From contig NZ_CP014229.1 of assembly GCF_001553605.1 (NCBI RefSeq), positions 62,001 to 126,000 on the forward strand: a stretch of 64,000 nucleotides of DNA, read 5' to 3'. Positions 13,932 to 52,217 of the stretch are shown here, piece by piece (position 1 is the first letter of the stretch; each line of letters begins with the position of its first letter). The DNA is from Desulfovibrio fairfieldensis. Its GTDB lineage: Bacteria > Desulfobacterota > Desulfovibrionia > Desulfovibrionales > Desulfovibrionaceae. The notes beneath the pieces were generated by a model, which worked only from the letters and a program-made list of their open reading frames with translations, did not search any database and was not told the DNA's origin. A program made the position numbers and the translations under genes.

Positions 13932-14061
13932 CTAGAGCGTTTTGATATTGAAAATATCTCAACGCCCTGTGCGGATTTTTCATGAAAATCCGCACCGCGA
14001 AATTATCGCAAGGCGAATTTACTTCGCCGTTAAGCGATAATTTCAAGCGCAAAATGCTCTA
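13932..14061. repeat. 130-bp three-stem palindromic element with TA ends
   Basis: Outer arms TAGAGCGTTTTG (from 13932) and CAAAATGCTCTA (to 14061) pair. Inside are two strong stems: TGCGGATTTT with AAAATCCGCA, and AATTATCGC...GGCGAA with TTCGCC...GCGATAATT. Both ends are TA, and the right TA is shared with the next element at 14062. It lies upstream of the dsr promoter and has no coding potential. Confidence 0.75.
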
Positions 14062-14206
14062 GGGTCTGTTAACACTATAGAATTTTTGTTCGCCTGCAAG
14101 GAAGATAAACCTGCTTTGAGGGAGTGTACTCTTCTGGTACTCGACCGAAAAAGCAGGTGAAATCTGACGCGGCAGGAGGGCAAAAAGGCATAGCGTTAAC
14201 AGGCCC
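14062..14206. mobile_element. 145-bp TA-flanked MITE, copy 1 (GGGCCTGTTAAC ends)
   Basis: Left end GGGTCTGTTAACACTAT and right end (reverse strand) GGGCCTGTTAACGCTAT are imperfect terminal inverted repeats of about 26 bp that run on to TTTTTG. TA dinucleotides flank both sides (14060-14061 and 14207-14208). The right TA is part of the TAG stop of the VKOR-like gene. A longer relative lies at 40679-40987. No transposase is present, so it would be non-autonomous. Confidence 0.75.
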
Positions 14207-15249
14207 TAGGGGCAGGGGGTCGGGCCTCCGCACTGCCCCGCCACCTGCGGGTCCAGAGGCAGACCGGCGTCCTGACCGGCCTGACCTGTCGGGTCGGCTT
14301 GGTCGGACGGGGGCAGGACGGGAGACTGCGCCGCCGGAACGCCAGGTCGGCCTTCCGTCTGGTCGGAAACGGAACCGGGGGATTGGCGCTGTCTGCGCTC
14401 CTGCTGCTTGACCAGCATGCCGGGCAGGCCGTGATATTCAAAGAAGGGCACGGTCTGCGCCCCGGCGGAAAAGACATGGGCCTTGTTGCGCAGCATCTTG
14501 AAACGCAGCCAGAGCAGATCGGGGCTCAAGGACGCGAGCCCGCGCGGCACGGCCACGTTCTGGGACTGGGCCAGCGCCTCGGCCAGATTCATGCCCGCGT
14601 CCAGCAGGCGGCGCATCTGGGCCACCTTGTACACATCATTGTCGTTTTCGGCCAGGGGATAGAAAGCCACGTCCACATGGCCGGACAGGATGTTGATGCC
14701 CTCGCGGCAGCTCGGGCAGGAGGGGGAGAAGAACATGCGTACCGTGGCTTCGTCACCGGCCCCCATGATGGGCCAGACCTCGGTCTGCGAGCGGGCCACG
14801 GCCCCCACGTTGACGGTAAACAGCAACACCCAGATCCAGAGCAGCACGGAGCGGCGGCCATGGCTGTCGCGCCCGCGCGCCTGCGCCGGTTCGGCCTGCC
14901 GGAAGCCCAGATAGCTCAGGGCGAAGAACACGGCCACCACCAGGCAGCTCACGCAGGGCGCGGTCAGGGCCATGAGCAACAGCAGGCAGATATCGCCCAA
15001 AAGGGCCAGTCCGGCCAGAAGACGCCCCGCGGCGGCGGCCCCCAGCAGGGCCAGCAAGGCCAGCAGGGCGAAGGTCCCCGTGCCCAGCCACCAGAGCGAA
15101 ACGCCGCCCACGGTGAAGTCCTGATACAGGGAACAACCGGCGGTCACGCAGAAATTGACGTCATTGCCGAAGGCGCTCCAGACGCAGAAGGCCGCTGCCA
15201 GCAGCGTGACGCACAATGAGCCGGTGAGTATCTCGCGGGATCGCTTCAT
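14206..15249 (-). CDS. VKOR-like membrane thiol oxidoreductase with thioredoxin-like domain
   Basis: Protein of 347 residues. The N-terminal half has four to five hydrophobic helices with the vitamin K epoxide reductase cysteine pattern (CVTAGC in the loop, then APCVSC inside a helix). The C-terminal half is periplasmic, with a CPSC motif in FFSPSCPSCREG, thioredoxin/DsbA style. This suggests quinone-linked disulfide formation in the periplasm. The extreme C-terminus is a Gln/Pro-rich tail ending against a MITE that supplies the G of the TAG stop. The start at MKRSREIL gives a normal membrane N-terminus; the open frame extends 40 codons further upstream without family support. Confidence 0.7.
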   Translation of the reverse strand: MKRSREILTGSLCVTLLAAAFCVWSAFGNDVNFCVTAGCSLYQDFTVGGVSLWWLGTGTFALLALLALLGAAAAGRLLAGLALLGDICLLLLMALTAPCVSCLVVAVFFALSYLGFRQAEPAQARGRDSHGRRSVLLWIWVLLFTVNVGAVARSQTEVWPIMGAGDEATVRMFFSPSCPSCREGINILSGHVDVAFYPLAENDNDVYKVAQMRRLLDAGMNLAEALAQSQNVAVPRGLASLSPDLLWLRFKMLRNKAHVFSAGAQTVPFFEYHGLPGMLVKQQERRQRQSPGSVSDQTEGRPGVPAAQSPVLPPSDQADPTGQAGQDAGLPLDPQVAGQCGGPTPCP

Positions 15250-15649
15250 GAAACACCTGTGGGTATGGCTGTGCGGCGCGGACGTGTCGCGCCGATGTTG
15301 TCGGGATTGCTCCGCCGGAGTGATCTGGGACGTGCCGCTGAGAGAATCGGGGCCACAAAAGTACAACATCTATAGGCTGTTTTTTACTTTTCGTAAAGCG
15401 CGGGGGCTTTCGGCGGCGGAGCAGGCGCATCAGGGAGCACGGCCTGTGCAAACGCTCAACCCGCGGATGCGCTTGCTTCGCATTCAGCGGGGCACATGTC
15501 ACCGGGCGGCACCGGCGGCATCGGATGGCAAAGGTCGAAGGACGGCTCTTCCGGGGACTTGCCTTGGTCCGGTCCCGCGGCTTATTGAGAAAGAGCGTGC
15601 CGCGCCTTGTGCGCGGGAAACGGCTTTTCTCCTTTCGCGGAGGCCCGCC
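15250..15649. other. Divergent intergenic region
   Basis: About 400 bp between the minus-strand VKOR-like gene and the plus-strand TauE-like gene. It should hold both promoters. An AT-rich stretch near 15360-15400 (TATAGGCTGTTTTTTAC) is the most promoter-like part. I see no gene and no known riboswitch. Confidence 0.4.
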
Positions 15650-16445: not shown

Positions 16446-16854
16446 TCTGGAGTCTGTCGTCATGAGCGTCTCTTGGGTTATCTCCGTGTCGAACATCGCC
16501 TTTTATTCCGGTCGCGCCAGCCGTTCACAGCACTGCTGTGTTGATTTAGCTGCAGCCGCAAAGAGGCGTACAGATAAGGACAGCAACGATACGGATAGCG
16601 ACTGTGATTTCGATGAGAGAAGTTTTGTGTAACTCATTGCAGCCTTCATCCGTAGCCAGAGTTGTTGTCTTTATTCGTACGGCCCACAAGTTCGCCTACG
16701 GCTAAAGCTTCTTCGTCTTAACGGCTGAGGCAAGAGTATACTCCCTGCATGCTTTAGCCGTTATGCGAGGAACGCGCATTACGGATAAAGACAGCAGTGC
16801 TAAAAGGCTCGTTCTCCTTGATATAACACGAAAATCCATCTCGTGACGACAGCC
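16446..16854. repeat. Composite intergenic repeat region
   Basis: No gene. The block CTGTCGTCATGAGCGTCTCT to about 16555 matches, inverted, the element at 55493-55706 (shared CTTTTATTCCGGTCGCG, AGCCGTTCACAGC and CTGCTGTGTTG). The block 16664-16738 (GTTGTCTTTATTCGTACGG, CACAAGTTCGCCTACGGCT) matches 40813-40886 inside another element. The region therefore looks like a patchwork of dispersed repeat modules. Confidence 0.7.
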
Positions 16855-17141
16855 TCTAGGGCAAATTCAAAGTGAAATTGCTCTAACGCCGCACACGGTG
16901 CGGCGCGCCGCGAAGACCGACCCGACGGGCGGCCCGTAGGGCCGTGCCTGTAGCCCAAAGGGCGTACAGGCATCGAGAGCAACGCGGCGTGGATTCCGGC
17001 GAAGCGACCGAAGGCAGTCCGAAGGGCTGTCCACGTTGGCGACAACGGAGCCATACGGGGATCGGCAGCAACGATAACCGTGTTTTTCGCCAGAATGCGA
17101 ACTTTGAAATTTGTAACATTGCAAAGTTAATCTGCTTTAGA
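16855..17141. repeat. TA-flanked palindromic element, long copy (ACTTTGAAATT ends)
   Basis: Left end TAGGGCAAATTCAAAG and right end CAAAGTTAATCTGCTTTA form imperfect inverted repeats, with TA at both borders. Internal blocks CGCCGCACACGGTGCGGCGCG and GTACAGGCATCGAGAGCAACGC recur, inverted, at 56741-56883. The block GCGTGGATTCCGGCGAA recurs at 19974-20102. Confidence 0.7.
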
Positions 17142-17659: not shown

Positions 17660-17687
17660 TAGAGCATTTCAAGATTGAAATGCTCTA
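17660..17687. repeat. 28-bp perfect palindrome with TA ends
   Basis: TAGAGCATTTCAA and TTGAAATGCTCTA are perfect inverted arms around a two-base centre. This is the minimal form of the AGAGCATTTCAA motif seen at the ends of several larger elements in the window. Confidence 0.8.
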
Positions 17688-21246: not shown

Positions 21247-21517
21247 TTTCTGTCCGTTATGGCTTATGTCTATGGCGCGTTCTGCGTATTTTTTGTTCGT
21301 CTTTTACGAAAAACAGCTTTTTCCCCGCGGTCGGCGTCATACTCGTTTTTTTGATGCGTACGTACCTGAGTACGTTTACGCTCAAAAAAACGAGCTTTCC
21401 TTGACCGCGAAAAAATATCTTATTTTTTGCAAAACCCGTCCAAACCGGCACCCGCCTTCTTCGCTGCGCTCAGCGCGGCGGTATAAGGAAACAGAGCCTG
21501 AACGGTTGTGTTTTTGA
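21247..21517. other. AT-rich intergenic stretch with long hairpin
   Basis: No gene. A long hairpin spans 21327-21408: GCGGTC with GACCGC, and CTCGTTTTTTTGA with TCAAAAAAACGAG (13 perfect pairs), plus weaker inner pairing around GTACGT. It separates the carboxyltransferase from the biotinyl-like gene and could attenuate or process the transcript. Confidence 0.55.
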
Positions 21518-21662
21518 GGAAGTGCTGAGTAATGAGGATGTTTGTTCTTTGCCAAGAAAGGCGAACGCCGGGCGGAACGAAGTGTATCAAAACATACACG
21601 AGTTTCGCACGGGGTGAGCCTGACGCAGACAAAGGGCAAAAAGACCATTACTCAGTACTTCC
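21518..21662. mobile_element. 145-bp MITE-like element abutting a stop codon (GGAAGTGCTGAGTAATG ends)
   Basis: GGAAGTGCTGAGTAATG at 21518-21534 and its near-exact inverse at 21646-21662 (16 of 17) bound a 145-bp non-coding segment. The right end touches the TAA stop of the carboxyltransferase (21663-21665). Related pieces lie at 47297-47437 (shared AATGAGGATTTTTGTTC core) and, as bare ends only, at 61164-61199. Confidence 0.75.
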
Positions 21663-23912
21663 TTACCGATAATACAAGTTTCTGCCGCCGATGGTAAGCA
21701 GAGCCTGCTTGAGGTTCGCGCGGATCTGCCTCCGGTCCCAGATGCCCTGAATGTGGCCGCGCGACAGCGCGCGGTAGGAGCGGTGGTATTTGGGCGGAAT
21801 GTCCATGCCCGTGGTTTCCTTGATCACGCCCGGTCCGGCGAAGCCGATGTTGGAGGAGCGCACCGCGAACTGGTAGGGCGAGCAGCCCAGGAAGCTGGCC
21901 ACCGGCCCGGCGAAGGAATTGGTATCGTACAGCACCATGTACAGGCCGCCGGATTCGATGTAGCGGCGCACGGCCACGGTGCAGCGCGGCATCTGGATCA
22001 CGCCGTGGGTGCCCTCCTGGATGCGGATGCCCGCCGTGCCGTGCACGTAGGCCAGGAAGGGGTAGCGCTTCTTGGCGGCGCGCTGCGCGGCCTCCACGAA
22101 TTTGTAGCCTTCGGCCGCGCCCACCGAGCCGCCCCGGAAGGTGCCCATGAGCATGGCAACCACCATCTTGGTGTTGTCGATGCGGGCTTCAAAGGTCATG
22201 CAGCCGCTCTTGGCCCCGGTCTTTTTCTGGGCGTCGCTGATGCGCTCGGCAAAACCGGGAAAGTCCAGGGGATTGCCCGCCTCGATTTCGCTGTTGAACT
22301 CAAAGACCGAGCCGGGATCGAAGACGTTTTTCACGTACCATTCGGGCTCCATGGGAAAATGGTAGCCGCAGTGGCTGCACACGCCCGCGAATTCCGCGAA
22401 AAGGTCCGGACCCCAGAGATCCAGACAACCGTAGGAAGCGCTGTTGGGACAGGTCAGGGTGCGGTCGACCTTGTAGCGGGGCGAGAGATAATTCCACTTG
22501 TGCCGCCGCGAATCGTCCGTCCAGGCCGAAAGGGCCGTGAGTTCCCTGGCCTTGTTGTCCGCGCGGCTGGGCAGATTGCGGGTGAGCTTGCGCCAGGGGG
22601 AGAGCAGGCGGCCCTTGAACATTTCCCACTCGTTGTCCACCTCTTCCATGAAGCCCCGGATCTGGCGTTGGTGCTTGCGATAGAAATCATACTTGAAGCT
22701 GACCCAGGGCTTGGAGAACCAGTCCCAGAAGGCGGCGGCGGTCTTGGTCAGGAAGGGACGGCGGTCGCGCGCGGCCTGGCGTGAGAGGCGCAGAAATTTC
22801 TGCTGGCGGCGTTCGCGCAGACGGTCCTTGGCTGCGGCCGACAGGCCCCAGCGGATATGCAGCTCGTCCAGGTTGACTTCCGGATTGCGGTGGCGCGAGA
22901 GGGCCAGCCCTCGGAAAACAGGCATCTTGCGGGTGGAGATGACCACTTCGTCCGTGGCCCGGATGACCTCCTGGCGCAAGGAGCGGAAAAAGTCGAAATG
23001 CCAGGGCCGCGCGCCCAGGGACGGCTCCTGCACCACTCGGTCGATATAACCGAAGCGCAGATTGTCCTGGGCCGTGATGTGCAGATTTTCGGCGCAGTGC
23101 TCGATCAGCTCGGGAGTGGCTCGCTGTCCGGCCTTGAGCCGTCCTTCGATGGCTGCGGCGCCTTCCGGCGAAATGACCGAATAATAGCCGTGCGAGAGCA
23201 TCAGGCGCTTGTCCGCCAGGCCGATGGCCTCGGCCCCGCCGGAGCCGCCCTCGGAAATCACGGCCACCACGGGCACGCGCAGGCCCGCCATGCCGTAAAT
23301 GTTGCGGGCGATCTGCTGGGCCGCGCCGGGGTAGTCCTCAATGGGAAAGGAGCCGGGCGTGAAAATATAGGCGTGGATGGGAATGCCCTCGGTTTCGGCC
23401 ACGCGCATGTACTGGAGGGCCTTGGCGTTGCCCCAGGGCTTGACCGAGCCGCCGTTGCGGAATTCCGCGCCGTGGCCTTTCTCCTGGCCGATGACCATGA
23501 CCGACTGGGTGTAAATCTTTTTGCCCCGGCGGCGGGTGATCACCGCGCGGGCGATGAGCATGCTGGGGTCCAGGCTGTGCTCGTCCTGGCCGCCCACTTC
23601 AGTGAAGTTGTCGTAGACGTTTTCCAGGATGTCGCGCAGGCAGATACGCTGCGGATGACGCACGATGCGCACCCGGTCCATGGGCGTGACGCTGCTTTCC
23701 AGACGGCGCTCCACATAGGAGAACAGATCCTCGACCGTGGCCAGTTCCGCATAGGGATCGTTGAGCGAGCCGGAGCGGGCGCGTTCGGCGAAAGCCGTGA
23801 GCCGCTCTTCCAGCAGGTCCGCGTTGTCCTTGTGCTTGCCCGCGAAAATGTCCTGCATGTAGGTCAGTCGGTCGCGCAGGCTCTGGATGCGTTTTTCGAT
23901 GTTGTTGTCCAT
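21663..23912 (-). CDS. Acetyl-CoA carboxylase-type carboxyltransferase (alpha and beta fused)
   Basis: Single 749-residue protein carrying both halves of a carboxyltransferase. It transfers CO2 from carboxybiotin to an acyl-CoA, presumably acetyl-CoA for fatty acid synthesis. Residues about 80-340 match AccA (GQEKGHG, FTPGSFPIEDYPGAAQQ, EGGSGGAEAIG). Residues about 470-749 match AccD, with a zinc-finger-like cysteine set (TCPNSASYGC, CSHCGYHF) and MVVAMLMGTFRGGSVG. The alpha-then-beta order is the reverse of the common AccD-AccA order. It sits 16 bp after a DUF1847-type gene, and its TAA touches a MITE-like element. Confidence 0.88.
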   Translation of the reverse strand: MDNNIEKRIQSLRDRLTYMQDIFAGKHKDNADLLEERLTAFAERARSGSLNDPYAELATVEDLFSYVERRLESSVTPMDRVRIVRHPQRICLRDILENVYDNFTEVGGQDEHSLDPSMLIARAVITRRRGKKIYTQSVMVIGQEKGHGAEFRNGGSVKPWGNAKALQYMRVAETEGIPIHAYIFTPGSFPIEDYPGAAQQIARNIYGMAGLRVPVVAVISEGGSGGAEAIGLADKRLMLSHGYYSVISPEGAAAIEGRLKAGQRATPELIEHCAENLHITAQDNLRFGYIDRVVQEPSLGARPWHFDFFRSLRQEVIRATDEVVISTRKMPVFRGLALSRHRNPEVNLDELHIRWGLSAAAKDRLRERRQQKFLRLSRQAARDRRPFLTKTAAAFWDWFSKPWVSFKYDFYRKHQRQIRGFMEEVDNEWEMFKGRLLSPWRKLTRNLPSRADNKARELTALSAWTDDSRRHKWNYLSPRYKVDRTLTCPNSASYGCLDLWGPDLFAEFAGVCSHCGYHFPMEPEWYVKNVFDPGSVFEFNSEIEAGNPLDFPGFAERISDAQKKTGAKSGCMTFEARIDNTKMVVAMLMGTFRGGSVGAAEGYKFVEAAQRAAKKRYPFLAYVHGTAGIRIQEGTHGVIQMPRCTVAVRRYIESGGLYMVLYDTNSFAGPVASFLGCSPYQFAVRSSNIGFAGPGVIKETTGMDIPPKYHRSYRALSRGHIQGIWDRRQIRANLKQALLTIGGRNLYYR

Positions 23913-32512: not shown

Positions 32513-32694
32513 TAGGCTCAGCCCTCCTTAAAAGCGCCTGCTGCAAAGCCGCCTTTTTCCGTGCAGCTGCGTTGCAAAAAAGAAATTGACCTCGCGGTAT
32601 GTTCAATACAGCTTCGCCCAATTTCTCCTTTGCGCCTTACTGCCCGAAAAAATTCAGCTTTTCGCGGACGGCGTTTTAATGAGGGTTGAGCCTA
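32513..32694. mobile_element. 182-bp TA-flanked full-length palindromic element
   Basis: TAGGCTCAGCCCTCCTTAAA at the left end and TTTTAATGAGGGTTGAGCCTA at the right end are near-perfect inverted repeats of about 25 bp with TA at both borders. The complementarity continues inward (GCAAAGCCGCC... against ...GGCG, and GAAATTG against CAATTTC), so the whole segment can fold as one long imperfect hairpin. It lies between the divergent DsrE-like gene and tamA and could affect their promoters. Confidence 0.75.
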
Positions 32695-40208: not shown

Positions 40209-40679
40209 ATGCGTTTCCGGGATACCTGCGTACTGGCGTTCTGTCGCCTGGGCGTGGCCGGGCTGGCTCCCAAGGCTCCGGGCACCTGGGGCACGGCCCT
40301 GGCCTGCCTGCTGGCGCCCTTTGTCTTTCTGCCGCTCGGCATGGGCTGGCGCGTGCTGGCGCTGCTGCTGCTCTTTGTGCTGGGCGCGCTGGCCGCCACG
40401 CGCGCGGAAAAGCTGCTGGGCCGCAAAGACCCCGGCGAAGTGGTCATTGACGAACTGGTGGGCGTCTGGCTGGTGCTGCTGCCGTTTGCCGCACCGGGGG
40501 TCTGGCTGGTGGTCGCGGCCTTTGTGTTCTTCCGCATTTTCGACATCGCCAAGCCCTGGCCGGTGCGCGCCTCGGAAAACTGGCTGCCCGACGGTTTCGG
40601 GGTCATGCTGGACGACGTGCTGGCCGGGCTCTGGGCCCTGCTGTGCGTGGGTGTGTTGCACTGGGTCGGGCTGGTTTAG
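40209..40679 (+). CDS. pgpA: Phosphatidylglycerophosphatase A
   Basis: Inner-membrane phosphatase of 156 residues that dephosphorylates phosphatidylglycerophosphate to make phosphatidylglycerol. Family motifs are APGTWGT, DPGEVVIDELVG, FRIFDIAKPWP and GFGVMLDDVLAG, with four hydrophobic helices. AGGAGG lies upstream of the ATG. Its TAG stop contains the TA and first G of the MITE that follows. Confidence 0.92.
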   Translation: MRFRDTCVLAFCRLGVAGLAPKAPGTWGTALACLLAPFVFLPLGMGWRVLALLLLFVLGALAATRAEKLLGRKDPGEVVIDELVGVWLVLLPFAAPGVWLVVAAFVFFRIFDIAKPWPVRASENWLPDGFGVMLDDVLAGLWALLCVGVLHWVGLV

Positions 40680-40987
40680 GGCCTTTGACACTATGCCTTT
40701 TTGCCGCTCACTATGCGCGGCAGCCGTTGTCCGAAGGACTTACGGATGGCGACAGCAATTGCATGGAACAGGCTGTGTCATTACGCATGCTGTCTTCATC
40801 CGTAGTTGGGCGTTGCTGTCTTTATCCGTACGGCTCACAAGTTCGCCTACGGCTGAAGCTCCTGCGTCGCAACGGCTGAAGCCAGATTTAGCCTGCTTTT
40901 TGGGTCGAGTACCAAAAGAGTACACTCCCTCAAAGCAGGCTTATCTTCCTTGCGGGCGAACAAAAATTCTATAGCGTCAACAGGCCC
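40679..40987. mobile_element. 309-bp MITE, long copy (GGGCCT...TTGAC ends)
   Basis: The left end GGGCCTTTGACACTATGCC and the reverse complement of the right end, GGGCCTGTTGACGCTAT, match those of the 14062-14206 element. The segment CCTGCTTTTTGGGTCGAGTACC with AGAGTACACTCCCTCAAAGC matches its interior. It carries an extra 165-bp module (near 40715-40890) that includes the block shared with 16664-16738. The left border is the TA of the pgpA stop, and the right flank reads CA rather than TA. Confidence 0.75.
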
Positions 40988-41109
40988 CAGCCGGGACTTT
41001 TCCGAAGACGCGCGGCATGACGCCGGAGCGCCGCGCAAAGCGGGCGCACCGACGGATTCCGGCGGAATATGCAGGGAAAAGCGGAAAAAAGAAATCGCCG
41101 TGCCCGGCG
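40988..41109. other. Intergenic region before infA stop
   Basis: No gene. This is the region past the convergent ends of the pgpA element and infA. I see no clear terminator hairpin for infA here. Confidence 0.35.
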
Positions 41110-45686: not shown

Positions 45687-47297
45687 ATGGATGCAGAGCA
45701 GGGGCGGCCCGAAGCCCCATCCCGGAAAATCAGGCGTATCAGCGCCTACCGCTTCCTGGCGCTGCTCATATTGCCCGCGGCGCTCCTGCTGGGCGTGGCC
45801 GGGCTGGCGGTCTTTCTCAGTCTGGACACTATCCGTCAGATCACGGATTCCCTGGAAGAAGAGCATTTGCCCGGCATTCTGGACAGCCAGCGCACGGTGG
45901 ACAATATCAATGTGCTGCGCAGCGAAGCCGCCGTGGTCTTTATGGCCGAGGACCCCGGCCAGCGCCGCGCCGCCCGGCTCAAGGTCCAGGCCCTGGTGGC
46001 CGAATCCGTGTTCGAGCAATCTCCGGAGATCACCGGCTTCGCCAAGACCGTGCAGGAACTGACGCAAAAGCTGGACAATGCCCGCAAGCGCAGCGACGAG
46101 GCCTCGGACGCGCTGCATCTGAACGAACTGCGTCTGTCCGGAGTGCTGGCGCTCCTGCGCCATGCCGCCGGCGACGTGCACACCCTTGAACCCACGCACA
46201 GCTCGCGCCACGTCACTTCGCCCGCTCGGGAGAAAGACAAAGCCCAGTATGAACGGGCCCGGAAGAGCTTTGAGCCGATGCTGGCTCTCTGCCGCCGTAT
46301 GGACCTCACCCCCGCCTTGAGCGAGGACTGCGCGGCCTTTCAGCGTGACCTGCGTGTGGTGGGGCAGGCCTGGAACCAAAAAGGTGCGTCCGACCAGGAG
46401 GCGTTGATGCTCTGGAGAAGTCTGGACGCCTCCCTCCAGGACCTGAGCAACGCCGCTTCCAGCGAGGAATTTCAGCGGGCCTATGCCGGTATGGAAGGCC
46501 TGCGGGCCGAAGCCCGCAGCATGCGGAACGGCTTTTACATTTCCATCGCCCTGCTGGCCGCCATGGTGCTCGGGACCGTGGCGGTACTGCACCGGCATAT
46601 CCTCTCGCCCATTTCCCTGGCCGCCCAGGAATTGCGCCAGATCCGCTTCGGCAGCCCGGCCAAGGCGCTGCCGCCCGTGCGCATTCGTGAGCTGCAGCAA
46701 TTGCTGGATCTTGTGCCCAGCCTGCGCGGCTATCTGAAAGATCTGGCCGCGCGTTCCGGCGCACTGGAGCAGGAGAAGAACAAATACGAGAACCTCAGTC
46801 TGGTGGACGCCCTGACCGGCGTGCCCAATCGGCGCAGCTTTGACGCGCGTCTGGCGCAAAGCGCCTGTTGCGCTTCGGTGGGCATGCTGATGATTGATGT
46901 GGATTTGTTCAAAAACTACAATGATTCTCTGGGGCATCTGGCCGGCGACAAATGTCTGGTCGCCGTGGCCAGGGCCATGCAGGCCACGCTCTACCGGCAT
47001 GACGACACCTTGTTCCGCTACGGCGGCGAGGAATTCGCCGTGATTCTGGAAGATGTCGTCGCGCAGCAGGCCCTGGCCGTGGCCGAGCGGATCATGGACA
47101 GAATCCGCTCGTTGCGCCTGCCGCATCCCGATTCGGCGGTGGCCCCGTATGTGACGGTGAGCATCGGGGTGGCGGTGGCCCGGCGGGGGGAGGGCTGCTC
47201 CGGGGCGGAACTGGTGGCCCGCGCGGACAAGGCCCTGTACCGGGCCAAGGCCGGGGGCCGCGACCGGATCTGTCTGTACGGGGACGAGGACGCGTAG
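45687..47297 (+). CDS. Membrane-anchored diguanylate cyclase
   Basis: Makes cyclic di-GMP. The N-terminal helix (about 22-46) and a second helix (about 280-302) bracket a periplasmic helical sensor region. A HAMP-like linker and coiled coil follow. The C-terminal GGDEF domain (from about 370) has the active-site motif GGEEF at 446-450, preceded by an RxxD product-inhibition site at 437-440. It is adjacent to an orphan binding protein, which suggests ligand control of c-di-GMP. Its TAG stop lies at the edge of a repeat element. Confidence 0.9.
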   Translation: MDAEQGRPEAPSRKIRRISAYRFLALLILPAALLLGVAGLAVFLSLDTIRQITDSLEEEHLPGILDSQRTVDNINVLRSEAAVVFMAEDPGQRRAARLKVQALVAESVFEQSPEITGFAKTVQELTQKLDNARKRSDEASDALHLNELRLSGVLALLRHAAGDVHTLEPTHSSRHVTSPAREKDKAQYERARKSFEPMLALCRRMDLTPALSEDCAAFQRDLRVVGQAWNQKGASDQEALMLWRSLDASLQDLSNAASSEEFQRAYAGMEGLRAEARSMRNGFYISIALLAAMVLGTVAVLHRHILSPISLAAQELRQIRFGSPAKALPPVRIRELQQLLDLVPSLRGYLKDLAARSGALEQEKNKYENLSLVDALTGVPNRRSFDARLAQSACCASVGMLMIDVDLFKNYNDSLGHLAGDKCLVAVARAMQATLYRHDDTLFRYGGEEFAVILEDVVAQQALAVAERIMDRIRSLRLPHPDSAVAPYVTVSIGVAVARRGEGCSGAELVARADKALYRAKAGGRDRICLYGDEDA

Positions 47298-47437
47298 GAA
47301 CGCGGGTTGATGGCCTTTTTGCCCTCTGCCCGCGCCCGGTTCACTCCGTGCAAAGGGCGGCTTTGAATATACTTCCTCCACCCGCAGCTCGCCGTTCTTG
47401 GCAGAGAACAAAAATCCTCATTACTCTGTGCTTCCCC
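47297..47437. repeat. MITE-like element after the diguanylate cyclase
   Basis: Starting at the TAG stop, the sequence GGAACGCGGGTTGATGGCC... is a weak inverted match to ...AATCCTCATTACTCTGTGCTTCC at the other end. The right half matches the 21518-21662 element (AATGAGGATTTTTGTTCT and TGCCAAG on the reverse strand), and the left part shares CTTTTTGCCCTCTGCC with 14062-14206. It looks like a decayed member of the same family. Confidence 0.6.
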
Positions 47438-50492: not shown

Positions 50493-52040
50493 ATGCAAAA
50501 CCGCGTTTATTTCTTCGACACCACCTTGCGCGACGGCGAGCAGTCGCCCGGCGCCACCATGAATCTCCAGGAAAAACTGCGCCTTGCCCATCAATTGGAA
50601 GTGCTGGGCGTGGACATCATGGAAGCGGGCTTTCCCGCCTCCAGTCCCGGCGATTTCGAATCCGTGCGCACCATCGCCGCGCAGGCCGGAGACATTCAGG
50701 TGGCCGGGCTCGCCCGTTGCGTGGACAGCGATATCGACCGCTGCTGGGAAGCCGTGAAGTGCGCCAAAAATCCACGCATCCACACCTTCCTGTCCACCTC
50801 GCCCCTGCATATGAAGCACAAATTGCGCAAGGACCCCGAAGACGTGCTCAAGATGGCCGTGGCCGGGGTCAAACGCTGTGCCTCCTACACGGACAACGTG
50901 GAATTTTCCGCCGAGGATTTTTCACGCTCGGAAAAGGACTTCCTCTGCCGCATCGTGGAGGCCGCCATCAATGCCGGGGCCACCACCATCAACCTGCCGG
51001 ACACCGTGGGCTACGCCCAGCCGCAGGAATTCGCGGTTCTGGTGGACTATGTGATCAAAAACACGCCCAACAGCGACAAGGCTGTGTTCAGCGTGCACTG
51101 CCATGACGACCTGGGCGTCGCGGTCGCCAATACTCTGGCCGCCCTCAGGGTGGGCGTGCGTCAGGCCGAGGTGACCCTCAACGGCATCGGCGAACGCGCG
51201 GGCAACGCCTCCCTGGAGGAAGTCGCCATGGCCCTGAGCGTGCGCCGGGACTACTACGGCCTGGAGCACGGCATCAAAACCGAGCAGCTCTATCCTTCCT
51301 GTCGCCTGCTTTCCATGATCATCGGCCAGCCCATTCCCAACAACAAATCCATTGTGGGGGCCAATGCCTTTGCGCACGAGTCGGGCATCCATCAGGACGG
51401 CATGCTCAAGAACCGCGAGACGTATGAAATCATGACCCCGCAGTCCGTGGGCCGCACCGAGAGCAATCTGGTCATCGGCAAGCATTCGGGCCGCAACGCC
51501 GTGCGCAACAAGTTCGAGAGCATGGGCTACAAGCTGGACGACGAGCAGCTCAACCTGGTCTTTGAGGCCGTGAAGCAGTTGGCCGACCGCAAAAAAACTT
51601 TGCACGACGACGACCTCATGGCCCTGGTCCAGCAGGAAATCTACCGGATCCCGGACCGCCTGCGCCTGCGGCACGTCAGCGTGCAGAGCTCGGATGCCGG
51701 GGGCGTGCCGCCCACGGCCGCGGTGCTCATGGATGTGGACGGCATGGAAAAGAGCGGCGCGGGCTTCGGCGTGGGGCCGGTGGACGCTCTGTTCAACGTC
51801 ATCGCCGATATGGTGGGCCGCGAGCCGGAGCTGGAGCAGTACGCCATCAACGCCATCACCGGCGGCACCGACGCCTTGGGCGAAGTGACCGTGCGCATCA
51901 AGGAGAACGGGCATTCCGCCGTGGGACGCGGCACGCATCCGGATATTTTTGTGGCCAGCGCCAAGGCCTATGTGGATGCCCTGAATCATCTGGCCAAGAG
52001 GGAGGAAGAAGGCACACGCCTCCACTGCCAGCATGATTGA
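50493..52040 (+). CDS. leuA: 2-isopropylmalate synthase
   Basis: First committed step of leucine synthesis: condenses acetyl-CoA with 2-ketoisovalerate. It has 515 residues, with FDTTLRDGEQSPGATM, HCHDDLGVAVAN, NGIGERAGNAS and a C-terminal regulatory domain (about 390-515) for leucine feedback. The ATG giving MQNRVYFFD has AGAGGAG upstream; an earlier in-frame start adds eight residues. Confidence 0.95.
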   Translation: MQNRVYFFDTTLRDGEQSPGATMNLQEKLRLAHQLEVLGVDIMEAGFPASSPGDFESVRTIAAQAGDIQVAGLARCVDSDIDRCWEAVKCAKNPRIHTFLSTSPLHMKHKLRKDPEDVLKMAVAGVKRCASYTDNVEFSAEDFSRSEKDFLCRIVEAAINAGATTINLPDTVGYAQPQEFAVLVDYVIKNTPNSDKAVFSVHCHDDLGVAVANTLAALRVGVRQAEVTLNGIGERAGNASLEEVAMALSVRRDYYGLEHGIKTEQLYPSCRLLSMIIGQPIPNNKSIVGANAFAHESGIHQDGMLKNRETYEIMTPQSVGRTESNLVIGKHSGRNAVRNKFESMGYKLDDEQLNLVFEAVKQLADRKKTLHDDDLMALVQQEIYRIPDRLRLRHVSVQSSDAGGVPPTAAVLMDVDGMEKSGAGFGVGPVDALFNVIADMVGREPELEQYAINAITGGTDALGEVTVRIKENGHSAVGRGTHPDIFVASAKAYVDALNHLAKREEEGTRLHCQHD

Positions 52041-52217
52041 CATTTGGCGTTTTTTGCCGCTGGCGGTGTTAGGCGGCGCGGTCCGGCTTGGTCACGTAGA
52101 CGGCTACGCTCCGCGCGCCGGACCGCTTGCCTGCCTTGCCAGCGACGAAAAACGCACAAATGTCATGTAAGAAAGGTAAGAAGATTTTTTTGTCCTGGAG
52201 ATACAAGGAGTTTGAAC
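52041..52217 (+). other. leuA-leuC intercistronic region with hairpin
   Basis: GCGGTCCGG (52078-52086) pairs with CCGGACCGC (52118-52126). With no T tract it looks more like an mRNA processing or stability stem than a terminator. Confidence 0.45.

Follow-up and report, generated by a model that had tools for sequence, protein, structure and literature searches.

Why a mobile element should begin, to the nucleotide, inside the stop codon of a host gene is the question raised by the pgpA locus of Desulfovibrio fairfieldensis. The locus lies in the window analyzed here, a stretch of 64,000 nucleotides of the chromosome (contig NZ_CP014229.1, positions 62,001 to 126,000), and coordinates below are those of the window unless the genome is named. 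pgpA (phosphatidylglycerophosphatase A; 40209-40679, plus strand) was assigned by a Pfam PgpA match, and the NCBIfam match of its product scores below that model's cut-off. The last codons of the gene are GTT TAG, with the stop at 40677-40679 on the plus strand. Since the element, of sequence GGGCC...AGGCCC, spans 40679-40987, the TAG consists of a target TA and the first G of the element, just as the first-pass annotation had described it. That annotation also held that the element has ends in common with a second element at 14062-14206. The ends do match, but the middle of the pgpA copy, at about 40741-40889 (edges approximate, no strand assigned), is a different, nested repeat. The identity to the 145-bp family represented by 14062-14206 is 90-95% for the rightmost 105 bp of the pgpA copy and 89-92% for 29-37 bp at its left end. 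The conserved core described below is matched on the minus strand at 40858-40970 (74.2 bits), where the nested repeat has displaced its 3' side, and the strand of the whole element is given accordingly as minus. Where the second TA of a target duplication would be expected, at 40988-40989, there is a CA, which is read as a decayed TA by comparison with the flanks of other copies. The pgpA element is an old copy of a 145-bp MITE with IS5-type ends, interrupted by the nested repeat. No such element follows the pgpA stop in the 14 orthologs shown, so the insertion is most simply younger than the split from those relatives; a core match was found at 1 of 44 pgpA ortholog loci, roughly 400 nt past pgpA. 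The nested repeat has matches at genome positions 3650232 (85%) and 634932 (92%) and at window 16661-16735. Repeats of this CTGTCTTTATCCGTA type occur at 16661-16735 as well as inside several core elements, namely those at 40741-40889, L171, L175, L179 and L181.

The 145-bp family is a young one. A query of the genome (3.70 Mb, single contig) with the 145-bp copy returned 41 matches spread over 40 places; 33 matches have an identity of at least 97%, and the family totals 41 copies once the pgpA copy is counted. Its members are 145 bp long, multi-copy and bounded by terminal inverted repeats, GGGYCTGTTRACRCTAT, and carry no transposase gene, as is typical of MITEs. A TA flanks GGG...CCC on both sides, as a target site duplication, in 28 of the 30 copies shown, the exceptions being L014 (GA on both sides) and L030 (CA and TA), and the target site of the family is YTAR. 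The end motif, allowing up to 3 mismatches, occurs 108 times compared with 2 for a reversed control. A single insertion sequence (IS) with MITE-type ends lies at genome positions 2825669-2826495 and carries two ORFs, which match DUF4096 and DDE_Tnp_1 above the Pfam cut-offs and score 105.4 and 101.9 bits against NF033580 (IS5), just under its cut-off of 110; a search with ORF A of this IS gave one match in the genome. From these ends and ORFs we infer that an IS5-family transposase moves the 145-bp MITE. The IS and the MITE have nothing but their ends in common, which counts against the reading that we prefer below. An IS bearing the different ends of the G088 elements was also considered and dropped, there being no IS-sized pair among the matches listed. 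Because the element duplicates a TA at YTAR and begins with G, insertion into a TAA or TAG stop yields TAG and leaves the protein intact.

Copies with differing ends are united by a conserved hairpin core of about 111 nt, which was recognized by comparison with other genomes of the genus. A first alignment of 19 sequences gave 31 base pairs, 23 with two-sided changes. A larger alignment comprises 134 matches (132 distinct) and was fitted to the structure. In it, standard pairs fill 93.9% of pair cells, two-sided changes occur in 29 of 31 pairs, and covariation scores 0.629, where shuffles give 0.188 and slid controls no more than 0.154. Two adjacent mismatches are retained inside the paired rod, G.A in 119 of 132 sequences and A.G in 106 of 132. 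Compensatory changes in the arms could arise by template switching inside a palindrome, and these retained mismatches argue against template switching as the sole cause. The core model matches 33 of the 79 genus genomes searched, the source genome included, and in a sample of the order it matches 53 of 199 genomes, which belong to 14 of 43 genera. An Rfam scan of the window returned only a tRNA at threshold and no family match for the core. A permissive scan of one tandem array at L203 gave 10 weak matches, all below the gathering score, that with the best E-value being Archaea_SRP at 22.6 bits (gathering score 96.5); a curated Rfam family was accordingly set aside as an identity for the core, none reaching threshold in the window or in that array. 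The array itself (L203 1349-2024, in genome G026) consists of five cores about 152 bp apart and in the same orientation behind one gene, whose C-terminus we take to be that of a DNA polymerase I, and tandem copies are also found in L298, L282 and L286. The stop of this polA-like gene bears cores in L274, L283, L285, L202, L203 and L197, some with different arms, which suggests a hot spot or long retention; the polA-like identity and the sameness of the gene across genomes were judged by eye. A rare placement was seen at L220 8400-8509, where a core copy lies just 5' of the start of a gene that presumably is mutM (MPELPEVET).

Covariance model R1 finds seven core copies within the window. The intact 145-bp MITE at 14062-14206 (plus strand) has a TA on either side (14060-14061 and 14207-14208) and contains the structured core at 14079-14189 (plus strand, 116.8 bits). 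It completes the TAG stop, at 14206-14208 on the minus strand, of the minus-strand ORF 14206-15369. This is the gene that had been called VKOR-like; the completed stop was correctly seen, but the protein has no Pfam match. The intact and pgpA copies lie in opposite chromosomal orientations, yet each is antisense to its own gene. Similar starts had also been noticed behind a carboxyltransferase and a diguanylate cyclase gene. These copies are most likely those at 21535-21645 (plus strand), where the ACCA-type carboxyltransferase gene 21663-23912 is antisense and its stop 17 nt away, and at 47313-47418 (minus strand), with the stop of an antisense GGDEF gene (45687-47297) at a distance of 15 nt. 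Both are distant members of the same structured family. A further copy at 52047-52156 (minus strand) is separated by 6 nt from the stop of the LeuA-like gene 50493-52040, to which it is antisense. The remaining two lie away from stop codons, at 21315-21421 (minus strand) and, flanked by two gene 5' ends, at 32550-32657 (minus strand; 37.8 bits, the weakest in the window).

The source genome was then tallied with gene calls from a codon-usage-based caller. For the young, 145-bp family, the stop is formed exactly by TA and the first G of the element in 15 of 41 copies; 13 of these are read from the gene into the GGGCC end and two (L007 and L013) into the other end, while L173 (-3) and L037 (4 nt off) fall outside the 15 and inside a wider limit of 22 nt. 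As a null, 74 of 675 non-coding-or-stop YTAR sites fall in stops (11%; 464 kb of the same genome with the MITE masked), against which 15 of 41 is a marked excess (P = 1.5e-5), and the 13 antisense copies exceed half the unmasked rate still more clearly (P = 1.5e-7). Sense copies at the exact junction, 2 of 41, equal the chance expectation; the sense arrangement is therefore not depleted, and simple purging of the stable strand fails to explain the pattern. The wider core family was counted at E <= 0.001, which gave 130 copies; as 150 of 1083 candidates were scored, the total may exceed 130. The core lies antisense to a gene and within 22 nt of its stop in 67 of these copies, in the mirror-image sense arrangement in 6, and elsewhere in 57, the pgpA copy being counted with this last group, since its core has been displaced by the nested repeat. 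The stops are 46 TAG, 14 TAA and 7 TGA for the antisense copies and TAG for all 6 sense copies, compared with 93 TAG, 109 TAA and 153 TGA among the 355 genes sampled from this genome as background. Three further antisense stop cases (L175, L176 and L179) and two sense ones (L182 and L185, the latter having lost most of the core) come from elements with the same ends and other interiors. Copies are thus enriched exactly at stops, and nearly always with the core antisense to that gene. At 23-150 nt the gene end is antisense for 24 copies and sense for 11 (double counting possible), so that the strong orientation bias is restricted to the stop itself, which again counts against our preferred reading. 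The genome-wide tally of distance and orientation that the first-pass annotation had called for is therefore far from random (67 antisense to 6 sense, n = 130).

The same bias was found in a comparison set of 78 top-scoring loci from 15 other genomes, loci that are not fully independent because orthologs of one gene count once per genome. At 53 of the 78 the core's 3' end lies within 20 nt of an antisense gene's stop (modal distance 16-17 nt), and the mirror case occurs at none. The stops of these 53 are 37 TAG, 15 TAA and 1 TGA, so that with the source genome included 112 of 120 antisense stop copies are at TAG or TAA, the background for stop usage being that of the source genome. The paired arm ends at the modal position in 16 of the 53 loci and within -2 to +4 nt of the stop in 37. 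The far flank before the arm is CA in 8 and AA in 8 of the 16 modal loci, and an intact far-flank TA is found in six other loci (L260, L262, L265, L269, L272 and L305), so that a decayed TA duplication outside the source genome is plausible. The TA away from the gene is often CA (8 of the 16 modal loci, L030, L033 and window position 40988), as though CTAG had become CCAG, with the TA of the stop retained. The rule is not followed everywhere: copies of G007, G073 and G074 are at stops in 0 of 9 cases and those of G066 in 0 of 3. Nine loci of the former three genomes (L242, L293-L296, L247, L303, L244 and L304) form a subfamily with long, distinct arms. Elsewhere, orthologous genes in different genomes bear stop copies with altered but still complementary arms, and these copies may have been inherited or re-inserted. 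In two stop-anchored copies, L238 and L240, paired arms are almost wholly missing. The original observation is thus confirmed, and is general and wider than first described.

Could stops simply be harmless places? If insertion at YTAR were random, stops would be among the few sites that tolerate it and the rest would be chance; insertion there is silent, as the element restores TAG, and a second repeat also occurs at stops, 9 of the 56 sites of the pattern TAGAGC[AG] that are non-coding or in a stop starting at a TAG stop codon (the pattern also hits non-repeat sequence). That second repeat is dispersed and palindromic, with TAGAGC...GCTCTA ends, and occurs in many intergenic regions, among them 13933-14061 (no strand assigned), with the intact MITE at its edge, 17660-17687 and 16875-16885. 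Many of the 15 exact-junction MITE copies adjoin a TAGAGC repeat, which may explain part of the stop enrichment; away from stops, the orientation of the MITE toward this repeat is about balanced by inspection. A neutral niche nevertheless predicts equal orientations, where 67:6 and 53:0 were observed, and both the stop share and the orientation exceed the YTAR null. We therefore regard it as improbable.

Relative age speaks to whether the bias arises on insertion or afterward. The share of copies that are antisense at a stop rises from 14 of 41 in the young family to 53 of 89 among the other, more diverged copies, and diverged copies at stops score better against the core model than those elsewhere (median 78.9 and 65.6; P = 0.006), a comparison confounded by the fact that 10 of the 13 weakest matches lie away from stops. 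Among the 26 copies with the top core scores, 9 are already antisense and 2 sense at stops. The trends in share and score fit retention, and the excess in the top-score copies fits biased insertion, so that both together are favored.

The two strands of the core are not equivalent. The core strand is predicted to fold better as RNA at all 78 loci (mean -70.5 vs -55.4 kcal/mol), and for the window copy folded as DNA the predicted values are -31.4 for the core strand and -27.5 for its complement. As the core strand is antisense at stop copies, messages carry the weaker fold. Cells with G.U and A.C number 241 and 64, and once three columns of fixed T.G pairs are removed they number 59 and 61. The antisense strand might itself be the product, as a structured antisense RNA running toward the 3' end of the neighboring gene. 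The better fold of the core strand at 78 of 78 loci would suit such an RNA, as would the conserved G.A and A.G mismatches and the three fixed T.G columns that this strand holds. A scan for sigma-70-like promoters found no site at either window copy, other promoter types being outside the scan. At 6 of 20 loci (genomes G179, G180 and G224) the predicted start of the next co-directional gene lies 36-52 nt past the core, leaving little room for an opposing promoter. An antisense RNA is a minor and improbable candidate.

The close spacing at these six loci, five of which are stop-anchored (two of the five being orthologs), bears equally on a role of the element as an intrinsic transcription terminator of the upstream gene. 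A weak U-rich run follows the inner hairpin on the message strand in the 145-bp family, and by inspection other family members lack it. A terminator consensus scan of the pgpA region gave 3 sites where 0.8 were expected in shuffles; one of these, at 40874-40893, where the nested repeat of the pgpA copy has its edge, is terminator-like on the message strand. Within the intact MITE at 14062-14206 the scan found none. Because of these scan results and the 36-52 nt that separate some copies from the next gene, termination is very improbable as a general rule; with no consistent signature across copies it was rejected as the general role, and that transcripts end in these elements remains a suggestion.

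A broader role in the message deserves more weight. A structure beside the stop that acts in one orientation, through message stability, an RNase E or RNase III site, or ribosome pausing, would be a selected 3' mRNA element, and selection alone would then account for the orientation. The strict polarity at the exact stop would follow, and selection would also be in keeping with copies at orthologous genes across genomes, several with arms still complementary, with the two-sided pair changes and kept mismatches, and with the copies that stand between closely spaced co-directional genes. There is also a precedent in Yersinia, where the parts of the reports available to us describe ERIC sequences at gene 3' ends that change the upstream message in an orientation-dependent manner (PMC2229807, PMC10969869). 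Yet the youngest copies already show the bias (the 9 to 2 split of the 26 above), the strand that reaches the message is the weaker-folding one, the three fixed T.G columns favor the other strand while G.U and A.C are otherwise about equal, and L238 and L240 are stop-anchored nearly without arms. Selection as the only source of orientation is hence possible but rather unlikely.

A second polarity holds best away from stops. GC skew switches near 3.24 Mb and, less sharply, near 1.45 Mb, and relative to replication one strand rule is obeyed by 91 of 130 copies (P = 5.9e-6) and by 32 of 41 young copies (P = 4e-4); when four pairs of boundaries were tried for the young copies, the count was 31 of 41 with three of them and 32 with the fourth. 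By class, the rule holds for 43 of 57 copies away from stops (P = 1.5e-4), 44 of 67 antisense-stop copies and 4 of 6 sense-stop copies. Since copies away from stops follow the direction of replication, two polarities act. Gene strand does not explain this: 20 background stretches gave 78 plus and 80 minus genes on one arm and 97 plus and 63 minus on the other. A similar partition is seen in G179, whose 95 copies are plus in 30 of 41 cases between 0.44 and 2.67 Mb and minus in 42 of 54 outside, with block limits chosen after viewing the copy list, replication arms unmapped and gene strand uncontrolled. In D. fairfieldensis both the coding strand and the lagging-strand template carry the weaker-folding strand, so that the two signs agree. 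Targeting of the lagging-strand template is known in other mobile elements, according to the portions consulted of two reports (PMC6006769, PMC8914252).

Polarized insertion followed by selective retention best fits the pattern of stop-anchored hairpin MITEs, and we put its probability at roughly one half. On this reading the elements are an old family of miniature transposons with the conserved hairpin core at their center, and an IS5-family transposase would move them, a single same-ended IS being present in this genome. Insertion would be polarized such that the weaker-folding strand lands on whichever strand transcription and lagging-strand synthesis leave exposed. Antisense stop copies would then be kept longest, as the message would gain only a 3' hairpin of moderate strength, either harmless or slightly beneficial to message stability or to translation termination. 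To our knowledge, no transposase is known to behave in this polarized, stop-directed way. The alternatives of the first-pass annotation, an insertion preference or a selected role, are partly supported. An insertion preference keeps its support from the TA target, the predominance of TAG and TAA stops and the excess in the 26 top-score copies. A selected role gains from the rise in stop share with divergence and from the better scores of stop copies, although the latter are confounded. More tentatively, and with doubts that outweigh our confidence, we propose that a mobile element docks on the TA of stops, transcription setting its polarity there and replication elsewhere, that many copies now stand as 3'-end parts of host genes, and that the family is order-wide, its core making insertion or retention depend on strand exposure.

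Bacterial MITEs are usually viewed as leftovers of insertion sequences strewn between genes. Here, in contrast, one core occurs in 14 sampled genera with varied arms and pairing kept, and is tied to stops at 67:6 and 53:0, which suggests directed insertion, a role at the message end, or both. It raises the questions of whether a transposon can sense the polarity of transcription or replication during insertion, and whether hairpins of this kind at the ends of messages are put to use by the host. The elements matter for annotation as well, as they occupy many gene 3' ends and, judging from the junction, would convert a TAA stop to TAG.

Several known systems resemble the present elements in part. 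REP sequences and BIMEs with RAYT transposases are likewise imperfect palindromes downstream of genes, present in high copy number and occasionally in tandem arrays. The source genome has 13 PF01797 (Y1/RAYT) matches, and none was found at E <= 0.001 in the core-rich genomes G061, G062, G072, G026, G017, G073 and G007. REP elements are therefore unlikely relatives, since several core-rich genomes are without the Y1 transposase, and a REP/RAYT identity was dropped. The sequence tag of REPs is GTAG or CGTC, in the part of the source available (PMC3733652). IS5-family MITEs are closer in having ends in common with an IS that carries IS5 ORFs, a TA/YTAR target, many near-identical copies and no gene of their own. 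Unlike them, the present elements have as their interior a structured core found across genera, not a deleted IS, and such cores also occur with other or locus-specific ends. Integron attC sites are imperfect palindromes just past a stop codon, with the folded strand antisense to the gene; the likeness is one of geometry alone, and the present elements are dispersed over the chromosome behind ordinary genes. QMITE2 of Coxiella is a MITE found mainly in 3' untranslated regions, and a structured core, a stop-codon junction and a polarity rule are not described for it in the portion of the report consulted (PMC10969869). ERIC/RU-1 sequences are also small, palindromic and mostly intergenic with TA at their ends, and as far as the sections seen of these sources go they are enterobacterial, with no description of a fixed stop-codon polarity that is biased genome-wide (PMC2229807, PMC10969869). 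The terminal TA and stable folded transcript by which they are recognized are found here too, the fold being a predicted one. Their core and ends presumably differ from those of the present element. Our literature search, of partial coverage, found no published description of this family, whether under Desulfovibrio MITEs or under palindromic repeats. The element, apparently undescribed in the literature so covered, is best filed as a structured, stop-anchored MITE of an ERIC-like kind.
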